A stretch of DNA of 64,000 nt from Sipunculus nudus (Eukaryota > Annelida > Sipuncula > Golfingiida > Sipunculidae): contig CM049311.1 of NCBI GenBank assembly GCA_026874595.1, positions 73,596,953 through 73,660,952 on the forward strand. The letters are read 5' to 3'. Positions 2,691 to 60,520 of this stretch are shown in pieces (within the stretch, counting starts at the first letter, position 1; every line of letters starts with the position of its first letter). Both the position numbers and the translations under genes were made by a program. A model generated the notes under the pieces. The model saw nothing but the letters and a program-made list of their open reading frames with translations, was not told the origin of the DNA and did not search any database.

Positions 2691-3870
2691 TTCTATCTCG
2701 GTTAATATTTATTTTTCAAGGGTCTAGTTTTTTGCATAAGGCTGCTTCCCCTTAGTTCTAAGTCATTCAATTGCAGGTCTCGTCAAATTTCGCTCGGTTT
2801 ATCGTCAAACGAGAAAAAACGAGATTTCACGGAAATGCTTATAACTCGGCGACTTTTACAGCTACACAGGTCTAGTTTTCGGCATTTCATAACATATGAC
2901 CAGCTTGACACGCCAGAAAAGAAATCAGGCCAAATCTTGCACCATATCTCGTCAAGCGAGAAAAAAACGAGATATCATGGAAATGCTTATAACTAGGCGA
3001 CTTTTACAGCTACTCAGGTCTAGTTTTTGGCATTTGGTAACATTTGGCCAACTTGACATAGTAAAACTGCGATACTTGGCGAAATCTCGCACTATATCTG
3101 GTGAAATGTGGAAAAACGAGATTCATAGAAATGCATATAAGTCGGCGACTTTCACCGCTAGACAGGTCTAGTTTTTGGCATTCATTAATATTTGGACGGC
3201 TTGACATGACAAACCTGCAAGACTGGCCAAATCTCGCACCATATCTCGTCAAACGATAAAAAAGGAGATTTCACAGAAATGCTAATAACTCGGCGACTTT
3301 TACAGCTAGACAGATGTAGTTTTCGCCATTTCATAACATTTAGAGAGTTTGATATGACAAATCTACAAGACTGGCCAAATCCTGCACCATACCTCGTCAA
3401 ACGAGAAAACACGAGAGTACACGGAAATGCTTATAACTCGGCGACTTTTACAGCTAGACGGATCTAGTTTTCGCCATTTCGTAACGTTTGGCCGTCTTGA
3501 CATAATAAAACTGCTCGTCTTGCCAAATCTCGTACTATATCTCGTCAAGCGAGAAAAAAATATGATTTCACGTAAATGCTGATAACACGGCGACTTTTGC
3601 AGCTAGACAGGTGTAGTTTCCGGCATTTTTTAATATTTGACAAACCTGACATGACAAAACTGGAAATCTCGCCAAAGCTCGCACCATTTCCCGTCAAACG
3701 AGAAAACACGAGATTTCATGCAAATGCTCAAAACTCTGCGGCTTTTATAGCTAGACAGGTCTAGTTTTCGGTATTTCATATCATTTGGCCAGCTTGACAT
3801 GACAAACCTGAAAACGTCTCACTGCTTCTTGTCAAACGAGATTAACGGGATTTCATGAAAAAATTTTGAA
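2230..3870 (+). repeat. 147-150-bp tandem satellite
   Basis: The landmark CGTCAAACGAG (or a close variant) occurs at 2803, 2950, 3100, 3247, 3395, 3543, 3692 and 3830. Spacings are 147, 150, 147, 148, 148, 149 and 138 bp. One further diverged unit sits at about 2240-2390. Conserved parts are AACTCGGCGACTTTTACAG, a GGTCTAGTTTTCGGCATTT segment and CTTGACATGAC. Short open frames appear on both strands because the repeat happens to be stop-poor; nothing suggests translation. Confidence 0.92.
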
Positions 3871-27494: not shown

Positions 27495-27576
27495 TGTTAC
27501 GGAGTGACATAAAAGCGGATCGAACTGTCTCGCTAGTGAAGCTTGCTTTGATAGCGAAGCGGTTGGTACGCCGAAG
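27495..27576 (+). mobile_element. Truncated TRIM LTR cut by LTR family A copy 4
   Basis: TGTTACGGAGTGACATAAAA through TAGCGAAGCGGTTGG (27552-27566) to CGCCGAA matches the first 82 bp of the 156-bp LTR found in tandem at 31.2-31.9 kb, read on that array's minus strand. The match stops exactly where LTR family A copy 4 begins. The expected remaining half is not found after that LTR. Confidence 0.85.
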
Positions 27577-31090: not shown

Positions 31091-31461
31091 GGGACTAAAG
31101 CTGGGTTTACACTAGGCCACGATTATGCCGATCCGATGCGAACAAATTGTTGACGCTTTTTTAAGGGTTTAATACGCTTAAATGTGATACAATGTATGTT
31201 ACGTGTTACGAAGACAAATTGCTCAGAGCAAATACTGGGCCGATCCCGGTTTCAAACCTATGTTTGTTGCGCACATGTCCGGCGTTCCAGCCGCTTCGCG
31301 ATCAAAGCAAGCTTCACTAGCGAGACAGTTCGGTCCGCTTTTATGTCGCCCCGAAAGACACCCCCTCTTAAGAGCGTTCTGCTATCAGAACAAGACTAAT
31401 TATCGCAGGAGTAATACTTTGGTGAGCTTATTCCCTTGGCCACACAGTTTACCGTCTCGTT

Positions 31462-31474
31462 GGACGAGCCCCCA
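31462..31474 (-). other. TRIM primer binding site 1 (tRNA-Pro type)
   Basis: On the minus strand TGGGGGCTCGTCC is complementary to the 3' end of eukaryotic tRNA-Pro (GGACGAGCCC plus CCA) for 13 bases, then diverges. It is the same 13-base primer site known from murine leukemia-type elements. Confidence 0.8.
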
Positions 31475-31736
31475 TTTTGTTACGAAGACAAATTGCTCAG
31501 GGGAAAATACTGGGCCGATCCCGGTTTCGAACCTTTGTTTGTGGCGCACATGTTCGGCGTTCCAACTGCTTCGCTAGAAAAACAAGCTTCACCAGCGAGA
31601 CAGTTCGGTCCGCTTTTATGCCAACCCGTAACACACCCCCTCTTAAGAGCGTTCTGCTATCAGAACAAGACTTATTATCGCAGGAGTAATACTTTGGTGA
31701 GCTTATTCCCTTGGCCACACAGTTTACCGTCTCGTT

Positions 31737-31749
31737 GGACGAGCCCCCA
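31737..31749 (-). other. TRIM primer binding site 2 (tRNA-Pro type)
   Basis: Identical to site 1 and at the same distance (3 bp) from its LTR. Confidence 0.8.
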
Positions 31750-31797
31750 TTTTGTTACGAAGACAAATTGCTCAGGGGAAAATACTGGGCCGATCCC

Positions 31798-31851
31798 GGT
31801 TTCGAACCTATGTTTGTGGCGCACATGTTCGGCGTTCCAACCGCTTCGCTA
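31798..31851 (-). promoter_or_regulatory. tRNA-like A box and B box inside a TRIM LTR
   Basis: On the minus strand TAGCGAAGCGGTTGG (31837-31851) fits the A-box consensus, and GGTTCGAAACC (31798-31808) resembles the B box. Start-to-start distance is 43 bases, as in a tRNA gene. The A box also forms a 3-bp D-stem-like pair (GCG/CGC). LTR 2 has the same pair (A box 31562-31576, B box 31523-31533). LTR 1 has GGTTTGAAACC and a mutated A box. Pol III use is inferred from motifs only. Confidence 0.55.
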
Positions 31852-32467
31852 GAAAAGCAAGCTTAACCAGCGAGACAGTTCGGTCCGCTTTTATGTCACC
31901 CCGTAACACAGTTTATGGTTATACGACTATCCGTTGCGACCTTTTATGATCATCTTGATTTGAATCTCCGATCTCTTACACTCGCTTACGTTCCTTACAT
32001 TCATAAAGTTCTATTACCTTTTGTTGCCTTTTGTTGAGATAAAGGACGGCGATTTAGACAAGATCTGTATTAAAGAAGGGAGATTTTGCATTTCATCAGA
32101 TTGTCCAGTCACTCAACAGAGGAAACATAGATATTTTGCTAAGCTCTATTACGATTAACCGGCTATGCTCATTGCGTTCATCCACGATCCTCCATGATTT
32201 TCAACGCTCTAAACATGATCTGCAAAGATGCCCAAGCTTTACTACGCTCTGAAACGATTTAAAATAAAATCGGCATGATCCTTGCAAAATTTGAAGCAGG
32301 CTTACAAATTTGGCACAATCATAAAGGTATCTCCCGAAGGTATCTCGCCATCACCACAATTTTGATCTACGATCTGTCACACTCAATAAGATGAGATGCG
32401 ATCCTAACACGATTTTAAAAAACATAACCAGATCGTGGTAATCTTGGCTAGTGTAAACCAAACTTTA

Positions 32468-33427
32468 GCGTCTGCGTGGCTCCCCAGCGTAATTTTTTCC
32501 CCCACTACAACACCTCTATATATGCTTTGTGTACTGTCTTACCAATGTCTTTGTCACGCCATCATAATCCTGTGGATCGTAAGTGTACGTAGAGCCAATC
32601 ATCTACACCTTTGCATGAAATCCTCTACGCCTTTGTATTCTCTATTCGTCCATCGTCTTCTACATCTGCTTCCCCTATTCTGCTATATCCCCAGTGTCTA
32701 GCCAATCCTCTTTGTCTGCTGCGTCCTCAGCGTCTGCTCCAACCCGTGCGTTTGCGTCGTCATCTGCGTTTGCTTCACCATATTTGTGTAATTCCTCCGT
32801 AAGCGGTACCATTGAGTACAGAGTCAAAGTGACAACACGTCATGTCGAAATCTGCCATGGATACCTCGACGAGGAAACAAATATATTCGTTAGTCTTTTA
32901 ACTCTGTATTACTAAAACTCCATTGTTACTTATTTCTTATTATGCCCATGCTCGATAAAATCCTGTTATAACCTATCATATTGAAAAACCTCACTGCCTG
33001 TTTGTTGAATTTCTAACCGCATACACACGTCTCCAACAGGTTGTGTGACAGACAGATGAGTCGTGTGTGGCGCAGGAAATGGGCCGTTTATTTTAGAGAT
33101 GGGATCCACGTTTTGACAATTGGATTCCAATATTTCTGATGTGTTATTTTCTTATAATACTCACAGCCTTAAGTTAAGATTATTTTCTGATTCAAAGAAA
33201 ACATTATCGTTCCAGTAGAAAGGTACACTCAGTCATATTTTCACAGGCGCTGAACCTACGTTTGCGTTTGTCCAATTCTTTGTCGTGTTCGTTCTATACG
33301 CTTGCATATTGACTTCTGTACAAGGTGCATTCTCTGTTCTTGTATTCCTCTATCTTTCGTAGGTTAACACTAACTGTAAGTAAATTAATTACTAGGAATA
33401 ACATAGGCGTAGACATAAACAGAGAAC
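32468..33427. other. Non-coding gap
   Basis: Includes a CGTCTGC/CTCTGC-rich stretch at 32460-32800, which looks degenerate-repetitive (GCGTCTGCTCC, GCGTTTGCGTC), and otherwise unremarkable sequence. Confidence 0.4.
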
Positions 33428-55140: not shown

Positions 55141-55733
55141 CTTGATAATTAGATGCCACCCATACCATGTCTTTCCTCCTCCTTTTTATTCAATGGAGTG
55201 CGTTACCGACAATTGTAAAAACTGAAAATGTAATAGCGAGAAGTCTGCGTGATTGATTGCGAAGCAGTCTCTTAAGAAAAACATTATTTTCTGGAATCAG
55301 CAAGGAAAAAAATATGCAAAGAACCCTAAAACATGGTGACGTGACATCTCCTTCCTGAAGCTGTTATTCTTATTGCCCCGTGAACGGTTTGGGGGGGGGG
55401 GGGGGGGACTAATAAAACAAGTGACCCATGGGTCATGACGCTCAGCTGACTGGGAAGAGATTCGCAAAAGGAAATTTTATCATTAGAATGGTAGTATATA
55501 CCCATTCAACTGAAGCATCAAACAGATTAACCAACAGGCCAAGATTTAGTCTGTATTTATATATCTCAAAAATAGAGAAAAATGTGTAAACTTTTAAAAC
55601 TAGAATACGGGTAACCGACAAGTGACTACATGTATCTGCCAAAATCGGATAGTGAGGCATGGATTGAGTGGCAAGGGGAAATAGAGTGAGGTATGTTGCA
55701 TATTAGCATGGATGTCTGCAGCCTAAATGTGTA
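55141..55733. other. Non-coding gap
   Basis: A G17 run lies at 55391-55407. No gene. Confidence 0.4.
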
Positions 55734-56390
55734 TGTAGGTTGTGCCACCTACCACAAATCCAGAAAGCTGTCCAAGTTGTATACACCTGCAAAATTTTAG
55801 GCAGAAAAGTCAAACCACTACATGTATATGAGCGATTTTTGCCCATGGCAGACAAACAGACAAACACTGTGCAAAAATCTTTGCAGGTAACCCCTCCAGT
55901 TTTGTGTATGATAAAGACCTATGTGAGATCTAAACACATGCACAATTTTGGCCCAATCGGTCAAATGGTTCCTGAGATATGAGCTTGGATGTGTGCAGCG
56001 TTAACTAGAATGTAGGTGGCGCCACCTGTCATAAAATCAAGAAAGCTGTCCACGATGTATAAACCTGCAAAATTTTAGGCAGTTATGTCGAACCACTACA
56101 GAGAAATGAGTGATTTTAGGCCACGGCAGACTAACAGACAGACGCTGTGCAAACATTGTTACAGGTGGCGCCACCATTTTTTGTGTATGTTACAGAGCTA
56201 TCAAAGGGCTACATTTGTATAAATTTTATTTCCTGATCGGTCAAACGGTTCCCAAGATATAAGCTTGGATGTCATCAGCGTGAACGTGAACGTAGGTGGC
56301 GCCACCTGTCATAAAATCAAGAAAGCTATCCTGGATGTATATACGCATGACGAATTTCAGGTGAATTAGTCAATTCACTGCAGAGATATG
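55734..56390 (+). repeat. ~280-bp tandem repeat with GGTGGCGCCACC
   Basis: Units start with TGTAGGTGGCGCCACC or a variant at 55734, 56011 and 56291. A second GGTGGCGCCACC lies halfway (56164 and 56445). CAAGAAAGCTGTCC, AACCACTACA and GGTCAAACGGTTCC recur in order. It runs straight into the duplicated 460-bp block. Confidence 0.88.
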
Positions 56391-57308
56391 AGTGATTTTA
56401 ACCCAAAGCAGATGAACAGATGGACACTGTGCAAACATGGTTACAGGTGGCGCCACCATTTTTTGTGTATGTTATAAAGCAATCCAAGGGCTACATTTGT
56501 ATCAATTTTATTTCCTGATCGGTCAAACGGTTCCCGAGATATGAGGGTTTATGAGTGGAAACAGACCCACAAATGGACACTGGATAGAGAGGAAAGGTCA
56601 GAGGTCAACGCAAATTGGTTAGGCACCAGTTCACATGTGACCCGATAATAGGTGTAAGTTTGGGAAAAATCGGTCCATTAGTCTCCGAGGAGCTCTCTGG
56701 AAACGAACGCCGCCGCGGTGGAAGAACTCGGTCAAAAACATAGTATCCGCAAAACTTCGTTTTGGCGGATACAAAAATACAGGTGGCTCCACCAGTCTGC
56801 AGAAACTAATAAAAACACTTAATGGTCAATATCCATGCAAAAAATCATATGAGTGATTTTAACCCAAGGCAGATGAACAGATGGACACTGTGCAAACATG
56901 GTTACAGGTGGCGCCACCATTTTTGTGTATGTTATAAAGCAATCCAAGGGCTACATTTGTATCAATTTTATTTCCTGATCGGTCAAACGGTTCCCGAGAT
57001 ATGAGGGTTTATGAGTGGAAACAGACCCACAAATGGACACTGGATAGAGAGGAAAGGTCAGAGGTCAACGCAAATTGGTTAGGCACCAGTTCACATGTGA
57101 CCCGATAATAGGTGTAAGTTTGGGAAAAATCGGTCCATTAGTCTCCGAGGAGCTCTCTGGAAACGAACGCCGCCGCGGTGGAAGAACTCGGTCAAAAACA
57201 TAGTATCCGCAAAACTTCGTTTTGGCGGATACAAAAATACAGGTGGCTCCACCAGTCTGCAGAAACTAATAAAAACACTTAATGGTCAATATCCATGCAA
57301 AAAAATCA
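56388..57308 (+). repeat. Near-identical 460-bp tandem duplication
   Basis: 56388-56848 and 56849-57308 match almost base for base. The only differences I found are one A/G (ACCCAAAGC versus ACCCAAGGC) and one T in a T run (offset 461 changes to 460). Each copy holds GGTGGCGCCACC, a DR1 site (56595-56607 and 57055-57067) and GCCGCCGCGGTGG. The join point AAAAATCAT joins to GAGTGATTTTAA. Confidence 0.97.
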
Positions 57309-57329
57309 TGGTGATCTCTGCATTAGTTG

Positions 57330-59288
57330 TTTAGATACTTCAGTTTTTGTATCAAATTGTCCATTATTCTGAGGGATACTTCGGAGTCCTATAGCTTGAA
57401 GGATATGGGTAACAGAGACCTAATTTCAAGTTTCCACAGGCACCTTTCATGGGCCTCCTTGCATGACAAGAATGAAGATTCTAGGTCCAGTTGTTGCGAT
57501 TTGTACCCTGTTGACAGATAACCACACCTTTAAAGGTCTCAAATAAAAGAAAAAAATTCGTAAAAATTTGAAAAAAAAATAGAGGTGGCACACCCAGTCT
57601 GCAGAAACTGATGGAACAGCTCATGATCAATATGTATGCCGAAAATCATGACCATCAGTGTTGTAGTTATTGAAATACTGCAGTTTTTGTATCAAATTTT
57701 CCATTATTCTTGGGGGGGGGGGTATTTTGGACCCATACAGCTTAAAGAATATGGGTAACAGAGACCTAATTTCAAGTTTCCATGGAGACTTTTCATGGGT
57801 CTCCCTGTGTGTCAAGAATGAAGATTCTTGGTCCAGTTTTTATGATTTGTGCCCTGTTAACAGATGTTCATATCTTTAAAGGTCTCAAAAATACAGAAAA
57901 ATTTCGTAAAAAAAAAACGAACAAATACAGGTGGTGCCACCAGTCTGCAGAAACTTATGAAACACTCCATGATCAATATCCATGCAAACAATTATGGTTA
58001 TCTCTGCATTAGTTGTTCAGATAATTTAGCTTTTGTATCAAATTTTCCATTATTCTGAGCTGTACTTTGGAGTGCCATAGCTCAAAGGATATGGGTAACA
58101 GAGACCAAATTTCAGGTTTCCATGGAGACTTATCATGGGTCTCCCTGTGTGTCAAGAACGAAGATTCTAGGTCCAGTCGTTACGATTTGTACCCTGTTGA
58201 CAGATAACTACATCCTTAAAGGTCTCAAAAATGGAGAAAACAATTCGTGAACATTGAAAAATACAGGTGGCGCCACCAGTCTGCACAAACTGATGAAATA
58301 TCTCATAATCAATATGTATGTCGAAAATCATGACCATCAGTGATGTAGTTAATGAGATATTGAAGTTTTTGTATGAAATTTTTGACTATTCTGGGGGGTA
58401 ATTTTGGGCCCCATAGCTCAAAGGATATGGGTAACAGAGACCTAATTTCTGGTTTCCATGGAGACTTTTCATAGGTCTCTCAGTGTGTCGAAAATGAAGA
58501 TTCAAGGTCCAGTCGTTACGATTTGTGCCACGCTAACAGATGACAGCATCCTCAAAGGTCTCAAAAATAGAGGAAAAAATCGTAAAAAATCAAACAGTAC
58601 AGGTGGCGCCACCAGTCTGCAGGAACTGATCGAACATCTCATGATCAATATGTATGCCAAAAATGAAGACCATCAGTGATGTAGTTATTGAAATATTGAA
58701 GTTTTTGTATGAATTTTTTTACTATTCTGGGGGGTACTTTGGGGCCCCATAGCTCGAAGGATATGGGTAACAGAGACCTAATTTCTGGTTTCCAAGGAGA
58801 TTTTTCATGGACCTCTCAGTGTGTCAAGAATTAAGATTCTAAGTCCAGTCTTTATGATTTGTGCCTTGTTAACAGACGTTCACATTTTTAAAGGTCTCAA
58901 AAATAGAGAAAAAAATTCGTAAAAAATCGAAAAATACAGGTGGCGCCACCAGTCTGCAGGAAGTGATGTAACATTTCATGATCAATATGTATGCCAAAAA
59001 TCATGACCATCAGTCAAGTAGTTAATGAGATATTGAAGTTTTTATATGAAATTTTTGACTTTTCTGGGGGGTACTTTGGGGCCACATAGCTCGAAGGATA
59101 TGGGTAACAGAGACCTAATTTCTGGTTTCCAAGGAGATTTTTTTATGGACCTCTCAGAATCCCAAGTTACAAGGTTCTAGGTCCAGCGGTTACGATTTGT
59201 GCCTGGTTAACGGACGGACAGACGGACAGACGGACGACGGACAAAGAGTGATCGCTATAGCTCAGATGACTTTCAGTCAGCTGAGCTA
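57330..59288 (+). repeat. ~340-bp tandem array, six units, with terminal module
   Basis: GGTAACAGAGACC occurs at 57408, 57754, 58094, 58430, 58766 and 59103 (spacings 346, 340, 336, 336, 337). It is the same unit as at 1-893. The last unit breaks at GCCTGGTTAAC into GACGGACAGACGGACAGACG, then a hairpin (59258-59288) with stems TAGCTCAG/CTGAGCTA and TGACT/AGTCA. Several units have G6-G11 runs before TACTTTGG. Confidence 0.95.
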
Positions 59289-59691: not shown

Positions 59692-60520
59692 CATTTTTTT
59701 CCGTAGAATCCGATGCGCCCAGGGGTCTTTTGTATCTTACATGTTAAATATGAGCATTTGCATATTTTGCATAGTTATGAGCTGAATAGTTGGCTGAAAT
59801 TGCAGATGACTTTTCATTATCTTATATAAATTGTAAAATATCTTGAATCACCGGCTTCTGTGGCTCAGGGGTAGAGCACAGCCAGGAGATCGTGAGTTCG
59901 AATCTCAGCTGAAGCGGTGAGATTTTTCACGGTCGGCCCCCACCGAGGGTGAGCGCTCTGCAGGCTTAATGAGAAGGCCATGCCCAATGGCCGTGTTTCA
60001 ATCACAAACGAGTGCGCTTTTCGGGGGTTCCTCGGTGGTATGACCCAGCAAAGGGAACGATTACGCACCCATGGCCCGCAGTTGAAGTAGTCACCGGTCC
60101 TGGTTGACGCCAGGAAATAAAATGAAAGGAAGCGTTTGATTCTGCCTTGCCACGTAGTCCGAAACCGGAACGGATTTCTGCAGATGTACATATACGTAGT
60201 TAAGTTAGCATTAAAAATGGGGGCGGTTACCTCCACCAAAAAAATCTTTAAAAAAGTATCTTGAATCAGATTAATCTTTACCAAATCTTAAAGGGTAAAA
60301 AATACCTAATTTGCATATCCAGTTAAACCGAATCTATATTTTATAGTAAGAAACAATAGACCATGGAAATAATATAGGTATATTTATTACGGGGGTTACA
60401 AAGGTCCCTTGGTTCGTACTTATGATTTTTTCCCGTATTATCCGATGAGCTTAACGGTTCTTTCGTATCTTGTATGTTAAATGATATTATTTGCGTATTT
60501 AGCATAATAATGAGCTTAAC
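59692..60520 (+). repeat. Diverged direct repeat split by a SINE
   Basis: TTTTTTTCCGTAGAATCCGA at 59693, with TGTATCTTACATGTTAAAT and GCATAGTTATGAGCTGAA, is echoed at 60427 (TTTTTTCCCGTATTATCCGA), 60464 and 60502. Subtracting the SINE and its target duplicate leaves an original unit of about 300 bp. Confidence 0.75.
59851..60256 (+). mobile_element. tRNA-derived SINE (406 bp) with 12-bp target duplication
   Basis: The head folds partly like a tRNA: GCTTCTG/CTGAAGC acceptor-like ends, a perfect D stem GCTC/GAGC, A box TGGCTCAGGGGTAGAG (59861) and B box AGTTCGAATC (59895), 34 bp apart. A ~300-bp non-tRNA body follows and the tail is A-rich (AAAAAAATCTTTAAAAAAG). TATCTTGAATCA occurs immediately before (59839-59850) and immediately after (60257-60268). 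Full-length, transcribed by Pol III if active and mobilised by a LINE. The 139-codon minus-strand frame across it is a shadow. Confidence 0.92.

Follow-up and report, generated by a model that had tools for sequence, protein, structure and literature searches.

The locus at positions 31204–31908 of the window, i.e. of the whole stretch of 64,000 nucleotides that was analysed, raises two questions: what kind of element is built from its alternating repeats, and whether this kind is new to animals. On the minus strand the locus reads LTR-int-LTR-int-LTR, with segments of 156, 119, 156, 119 and 155 bp. TRF describes it as a tandem array with a score of 1267, a period of 275 and 93% matches. In element orientation, the first LTR (31753–31908, 156 bp) extends from TGTTACG to CGTAACA and is followed by internal segment 1 (31634–31752, 119 bp), the middle LTR (31478–31633, 156 bp), internal segment 2 (31359–31477, 119 bp) and the last LTR (31204–31358, 155 bp), all on the minus strand. 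The two internal segments differ at one position (118/119 identical). The internal end of the last LTR has diverged and its B box is altered. A single LTR-int-LTR unit comprises 431 bp with an internal segment of 119 bp. The earlier note had described three 156-bp repeats with TGTTACG/CGTAACA ends and two 119-bp spacers. The alternation and the spacer lengths are as described, but one repeat measures 155 bp, and the end motif is present at five of the six LTR ends; the spacer-side end of the LTR at 31204–31358 reads TCTTTCG instead of TGTTACG.

Each spacer opens, on the minus strand, with AAA-TGGGGGCTCGTCC and closes with AAGAGGGGGTG. The former contains the primer-binding site (31737–31749 and, in the second segment, 31462–31474, minus strand), in which TGGGGGCTCGTCC is the complement of the last 13 nt of tRNA-Pro, judged from the tRNA-Pro genes of the source genome with a predicted discriminator base and CCA. 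The latter is the polypurine tract (31634–31644 and 31359–31369, minus strand), whose columns are 85–96% conserved among 84 internal segments. Both assignments had been made in the earlier note and hold. A fragment of a further copy of the array's LTR (LTR positions 1–81) is located on the plus strand at 27495–27575.

The array is flanked by two 21-bp inverted arms, CTAAAGCTGGGTTTACACTAG and CTAGTGTAAACCAAACTTTAG, at 31095–31115 and 32448–32468, which are 90% complementary. Since the array lies between these arms, it is probably placed inside a TIR-bearing (MITE-like) element into which the TRIM inserted.

The 156-bp LTR is dispersed across the source genome (1.43 Gb), where 780 exact junctions of LTR and primer site were found (396 + 384); a reversed-pattern control gave 0 + 0. 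A search with the LTR returned at least 55 matches (40 scored among 3937 candidates). Eighty loci were examined, namely the 30 best matches, the 30 junctions listed first for contig C1 and 20 further C1 stretches. Among the 50 junction loci on C1, of which L035/L036 and L052/L053 are single loci seen twice and L038/L039 is a local duplication, the plain LTR-int-LTR copy is the commonest form (16 loci, with solo LTRs outside the count). Three are three-LTR arrays. The remaining loci comprise a Gypsy element (L049), related-looking families (L044, L055 and L101) and truncated or rearranged copies. L044, L055 and L101 resemble the array at their LTR ends and share its primer site, but have another internal segment; they are perhaps further Helenus-like families of the source genome.

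Target duplications accompany these copies. On C1, an exact 4-bp duplication is present at 19 of 26 intact-ended chains, a count that is not deduplicated and includes the pairs L038/L039 and L052/L053. Pooling the 80 loci and removing duplicates leaves 44 insertions with TG...CA ends. An exact 4-bp repeat flanks 29 of these, and a 5-bp duplication none. With AT-repeat flanks excluded, 20 of 31 informative insertions carry the 4-bp duplication, compared with a mean of 0.875 and at most 5 in 2000 permutations. The duplication is absent at 15 of the 44 insertions, including the window copy, which is flanked by ACTG and CGTA. Thus, the LTR-int-LTR copies with target duplications that the earlier note proposed to look for do exist, and their boundaries fall at TGTTACG/CGTAACA as in the window.

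Elements with these properties have been described as Helenus (TRIMp3), i.e. TRIMs with tRNA-like LTRs from six animal phyla (Kojima 2024, PMC10886601). In the outline given there, Helenus elements are 311–1263 bp long with two LTRs and no proteins, include 51 families in pteriomorph bivalves, the sole mollusc group for which they are reported, with tRNA-Pro among the primers, generate 4-bp duplications in animals with Gypsy as the presumed helper, and form tandem arrays in one zebrafish family. Their transcription by Pol III is put forward in that paper as a proposal. The family of the window array shares tRNA-like A and B boxes within its LTRs (66 of 129 copies), the 431-bp TRIM without proteins, the tRNA-Pro primer site TGGGGGCTCGTCC(GGGAT) matching tRNA-Pro genes of the source genome, the conserved polypurine tract at the internal end and the 4-bp duplication (20 of 31 informative insertions, the window copy itself having none). 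By these described features the array is a real, ordinary member of Helenus. The recognition of a miniature LTR element in tandem is therefore sustained. The accompanying remark that none was known from animals was overtaken by the 2024 paper, and the claimed first animal case becomes a confirmed Helenus member.

Other systems were compared with the array. Plant Cassandra elements are also TRIMs whose LTRs contain Pol III-type promoter sequence, and arrays of about three LTRs are reported for them in the account consulted (PMC7215508). The Cassandra LTR, however, carries 5S rRNA sequence, and Rfam searches found no 5S in the window at gathering score and none in 31150–31960 at E ≤ 10; this assignment was rejected. 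The bivalve biv-TRIM resembles the array in having tandem and solo forms, but it is characterized in its summary description by a TDR of 202–218 bp, an internal region of 77–80 bp, the polypurine tract GGGGAGA in most copies and the lack of an unambiguous primer site (PMC6934838). The corresponding features of the array are 156 bp, 119 bp, AAGAGGGGGTG and a clear tRNA-Pro site, and biv-TRIM was rejected because the lengths and the polypurine tract disagree. Three-LTR complexes of Triticeae, as sketched in PMC1950507, resemble some loci of the present family in having LTR-int-LTR-int-LTR within one target duplication. Those complexes are large and coding, whereas the window array lacks a target duplication and seems to have grown at its present site. 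Retrozymes contain a hammerhead ribozyme in the LTR. No ribozyme was found in the window at gathering score or in 31150–31960 at E ≤ 10, and a retrozyme was rejected.

The earlier note had inferred in the LTR a tRNA-type promoter with an A box and a B box 43 bases apart. In the first LTR, the A box TAGCGAAGCGG occupies 31841–31851 (LTR positions 58–68) and the B box or T-arm GGTTCGAAACC occupies 31798–31808 (LTR positions 101–111), both on the minus strand. At this distance (LTR positions 58 and 101) the pair is intact in two of the three window LTRs; the third has no match to the box pattern, so that the claim applies to the array in part. In the family, A and B boxes are in register in 66 of 129 LTR copies, and in 58 of these exactly 32 nt separate the boxes. 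The in-register pair occurs in none of the 129 reverse complements and in no copy in each of 50 dinucleotide-shuffle rounds. A TATA-like ATAAAAG is located at 31888–31894 of the minus strand (LTR positions 15–21), and ATAAAA is kept in 106 of the 129 copies. Furthermore, TTTT at 31779–31782 (minus strand, LTR positions 127–130), 15 nt past the B box, may act as a weak terminator for Pol III. Of the 129 copies, 100 have a T4 run near position 127, which could stop Pol III transcripts within the first LTR.

Outside CpG, mean column identity is highest in the A box (0.953), the TATA-like ATAAAAG (0.960) and the two LTR ends (0.954 and 0.979). The B box, at 0.907 compared with 0.903 for positions 70–99, has no excess conservation. 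The RNA fold of one LTR gave a z of −2.06, i.e. modest structure only. A tRNA covariance test of the LTRs, which the earlier note had proposed, came out negative: no tRNA match was obtained in 31150–31960 at E ≤ 10, nothing reached gathering score in 20 loci, and no LTR matched tRNA at E ≤ 10 in 18 loci. ARAGORN called 0 genes in 60 loci. A functional tRNA gene was therefore rejected for the scanned LTRs, and the tRNA likeness of the LTR lies in the promoter boxes and the T-arm. For Helenus in general, it is reported that few families are able to encode a tRNA and that conservation is centred on the boxes (Kojima 2024, PMC10886601).

Because the covariance and ARAGORN tests were negative on the scanned LTRs, the boxes could be remnants. 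The element would then be an ordinary Pol II TRIM, with ATAAAAG driving transcription and the A and B boxes left over, without function, from a SINE or tRNA that inserted in the LTR. The position of ATAAAA, 24–30 bp ahead of the start that the A box predicts, its conservation in 106 copies, the B-box columns that are no better conserved than their neighbours and the failure of the tRNA models are in line with it. A dead relic does not account well for an A box conserved above the LTR middle (0.953 vs 0.903) or for a box pair kept at one fixed gap in 58 of the 66 copies that have it. In addition, promoter function has been argued from cross-family conservation, as presented in Kojima 2024 (PMC10886601). 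A purely Pol II-driven TRIM is thus possible but rather doubtful. The promoter is likely of tRNA type in origin, and its sequence suggests that Pol III may use it.

The priming tRNA can be traced in the source genome. The 5' half of tRNA-Pro is found at 73 places with at most two mismatches and the exact 3' half, ...AAATCCCGGACGAGCC, at 17 places. In 14 of the 17, the 3' half sits 37 bases past a listed 5' half, as in the tRNA-Pro gene at C14:19081274-19081344. Most of the 5'-half matches, nearly the whole C5 cluster included, have no exact 3' half (17 vs 73). The matches are clustered on C5 (41.6–41.8 Mb) and C14 (19.08–19.31 Mb), and genome-wide 71 of the 73 are on the plus strand.

The sequence following the 13-nt primer site is of two sorts. 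At 302 junctions it continues with AACGT and then G, which is the element type. At 159 junctions it continues with GGGAT and then G; here one following base was checked, and Gypsy fusions and related families are included in the count. GGGAT is the outcome of an 18-nt copy of tRNA-Pro. Base 58 of the tRNA is modified (m1A58) and halts copying just before it. The GGGAT sites fit a conversion of the primer site to tRNA sequence during copying.

We consider it highly probable that the array is a Helenus-type TRIM, a non-autonomous LTR retrotransposon, and follows the cycle proposed here, with a side path of mispriming. Transcription would start near LTR position 45 from the tRNA-type promoter; the TATA-like box 24–30 bp upstream of this start would also permit Pol II or mixed use. 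The RNA would be packaged by a Gypsy element whose primer site is likewise that for tRNA-Pro; fused copies point to this helper, and its particles are presumed. tRNA-Pro would prime the minus strand and the polypurine tract the plus-strand strong-stop DNA. The latter would extend through the LTR and 18 nt into the tRNA and halt before m1A58, in agreement with the tRNA-sequence primer sites. A putative integrase would insert the product with the observed 4-bp duplication. In the side path, the new 3' end ...TCCGGGAT would sometimes pair with the T-arm of a tRNA-like LTR instead of the primer site. This would yield elements that are folded back or repeated internally and are nevertheless able to integrate; such junctions, and duplications around them, are observed, and mispriming is the step proposed to explain them. 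The window copy would have been inserted as LTR-int-LTR and have gained its further LTR and internal segment later, by unequal exchange.

Within the window copy, identity is 99.2% between the internal segments, 96.2% between LTR 1 and LTR 2 and 89.7% between the outer LTRs. Because of this pattern and the lack of a target duplication, the copy probably expanded in place after insertion. Among the best-match loci, units within one locus compared with units of different loci have identities of 0.921 vs 0.881 for the internal segment and 0.898 vs 0.860 for the LTR. A model in which three-LTR complexes arise by template switching was put forward by Sabot and Schulman, in the part of their account considered here (PMC1950507). 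Applied to Helenus, the three-LTR form would result from a switch between two RNAs during reverse transcription and not from exchange after insertion. L005 and L019 have the expected properties: three LTRs within a single 4-bp duplication, differing internal segments and outer LTRs that are most alike. The outer pair is most alike in only 4 of the 16 three-LTR arrays compared, however, and template switching may therefore have made a minority of them. The window copy, with its nearly identical internal segments, less similar outer LTRs and no duplication, has the opposite pattern. As an explanation of the three-LTR form, template switching is unlikely.

L049 is a Gypsy-like element with the LTR end CCGTAACA, followed by the primer site of the Helenus family and then a leader. 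Its gag contains a SCAN domain (E 6.5e-12) and one in-frame stop. The label Gypsy is based on this gag, on the primer site and on the attribution of animal Helenus to Gypsy by Kojima. The Gypsy-type LTR end joined to the L049 leader occurs at 83 exact junctions genome-wide. Helenus sequence is fused to an L049-type leader or its LTR in L054, L060, L073 and L080, and in L073 a tRNA-Pro copy meets the Gypsy LTR at a short common stretch. Furthermore, the Helenus-type end TTCGTAACA precedes an L049-type leader at 10 exact sites genome-wide, and at 9 of these the spacer has the Helenus length. These fusions could in principle have formed at the DNA level instead. Read as products of copying, they suggest joint reverse transcription of Helenus and Gypsy, and the L049-type Gypsy element, with its SCAN-type gag and common primer site, is likely the Helenus helper. 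In the passages available from Kojima 2024 (PMC10886601), the helper is recognized by the shared primer site; here, fused copies are present as well.

The GGGAT continuation is also found at junctions of a different kind. GGGAT followed by YNG occurs at 21 exact sites, AACGT followed by YNG at none. An inverted LTR is joined, starting from its T-arm, at 15 of the 21 sites (13 loci), and an LTR in direct orientation at 3 (2 loci). The others are single cases: an inverted internal segment in L078, further tRNA-Pro sequence in L073 and an ordinary copy with a substitution in L081. In L083 and in the first unit of L054, the sequence jumps from GGGAT into a GGGAT within the internal segment. Altogether, 17 loci contain the LTR with an exact 18-nt reverse copy of tRNA-Pro, and the partner is an LTR T-arm in 15 of them. 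Counted by locus, this corresponds to 17 of 177 for GGGAT compared with 0 of 302 for AACGT (P=2.7e-8). The AACGT control is also without the microhomology, so this comparison does not separate an error of reverse transcription from DNA-level recombination; the target duplications do.

Two intact ends are present in 8 of the 17 junction loci, and an exact 4-bp duplication in 7 of these (L063 TGGC, L065 CTGT, L067 ACAG, L068 AGGA, L070 ATAT, L075 AACA and L078 GACT). The eighth, L074, has no duplication (TGAA/TAAA), and the ATAT of L070 weakens the count. Among the 13 inverted loci, 8 have an inverted part that spans LTR positions 115 to 1 in the alignment, and the product therefore terminates in the inverted LTR start; in the other 5 the alignment is shorter or broken. 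The base facing tRNA position 57 is of the LTR type in 10 of the 13 inverted loci and of the tRNA type in 3, which is mostly consistent with a copying halt ahead of the modified base 58. In L073 the reverse copy of tRNA-Pro extends over 66 columns and includes CCA; its local score is 86, compared with at most 23 for shuffled sequence, and Rfam scores it as tRNA at 30.7 bits (gathering 29). CCA is not encoded by nuclear tRNA genes.

At the LTR joins, the primer-site end and the LTR T-arm have 7–8 nt of homology. The LTR palindrome ATCCCGGGAT was rejected as the target, as it is present in 0 of 129 LTR copies by exact match. By the same count, ATCCCGG is present in 37 copies and CCGGGAT in 33. 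Accordingly, the two targets mostly represent different variants of the LTR. The prediction that the junction-side LTR carries the matching variant is true at some loci and false at others. It is false at the inverted junction of L067, where the adjoining LTR has CCGGGAT, and at the direct junctions of L062 and L072, where that LTR has ATCCCGG and ATCCCAG, respectively, and not CCGGGAT. Since the adjoining LTR is without the matching T-arm letters at some junctions, the target LTR was often another molecule, or it has changed since. The LTR tRNA-like sequence of Helenus is described as not complementary to the primer site in the relevant portion of Kojima 2024 (PMC10886601); the 7–8-nt match to the T-arm and the joined products found here differ from this.

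The junctions of the 17 loci fit mispriming by plus-strand strong-stop DNA via the T-arm common to LTR and primer. The same homology can also drive DNA repair, and the fold-back and LTR-to-LTR junctions might be microhomology rearrangements of normal insertions. Such a DNA-level origin would be in keeping with junctions that are duplicated locally or segmentally (L061/L062, L063/L064 and L075/L076) and with junction-side LTRs that do not always have the matching letters. A rearrangement inside an existing insertion would, however, not be expected to place an inverted LTR start at the outer boundary, where it is mostly found. The 4-bp duplications in 7 of the 8 intact-ended cases, the position of the join at the 18-nt limit of tRNA copying and the CCA of the tRNA-Pro copy in L073 likewise argue against it. 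A DNA-level origin of these junctions is improbable, and mispriming during reverse transcription is the preferred reading.

We put forward a more general statement, in which our confidence is only slightly better than even. In LTR elements with a tRNA promoter, the T-arm in common with the primer would let the tRNA-copied 3' end of the strong-stop DNA reach the LTR. This would give rise to a self-made class of fold-back insertions (LTR, 18-nt tRNA copy, inverted LTR) with normal duplications, which would recur in Helenus families with a matching T-arm. Should this conflict over the T-arm be widespread, it would account for unusual inverted or shortened copies in such elements and provide a readout of primer use, from sequence alone, in animals without assayable reverse transcription. 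The miscopied insertions would be a record of tRNA-Pro priming and of the 18-nt stop. Together with the helper-Gypsy fusions and the tRNA-sequence primer sites, they are additions to the 2024 description of Helenus, as far as the portions consulted go (PMC10886601). Titles and abstract openings of the open-access literature yielded no T-arm mispriming and no Helenus helper fusion, which is not proof of absence.

That the array is a tandem satellite or a SINE and not an LTR element, as its 275-bp period and its SINE-like tRNA-type boxes might suggest, is contradicted by the 4-bp duplications, and with the primer site, the polypurine tract, the TG...CA ends and the plain LTR-int-LTR copy as the commonest form in the 50-locus sample this reading is barely credible.

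Other repeats are present elsewhere in the window. Three adjoining tandem arrays with units of 282, 460 and 336 bp extend over 55700–59211. The palindrome GGTGGCGCCACC has eight occurrences from 56015 to 58939 and a further one at 540. Past the palindrome arrays, the plus strand at 59854–59916 gives the sole Rfam match of the window at gathering score, a tRNA with 36.4 bits (gathering 29) that ARAGORN does not call; we take it for a tRNA relic or a SINE head. A 148-bp tandem array with 6.8 copies and 77% matches is located at 2802–3813.
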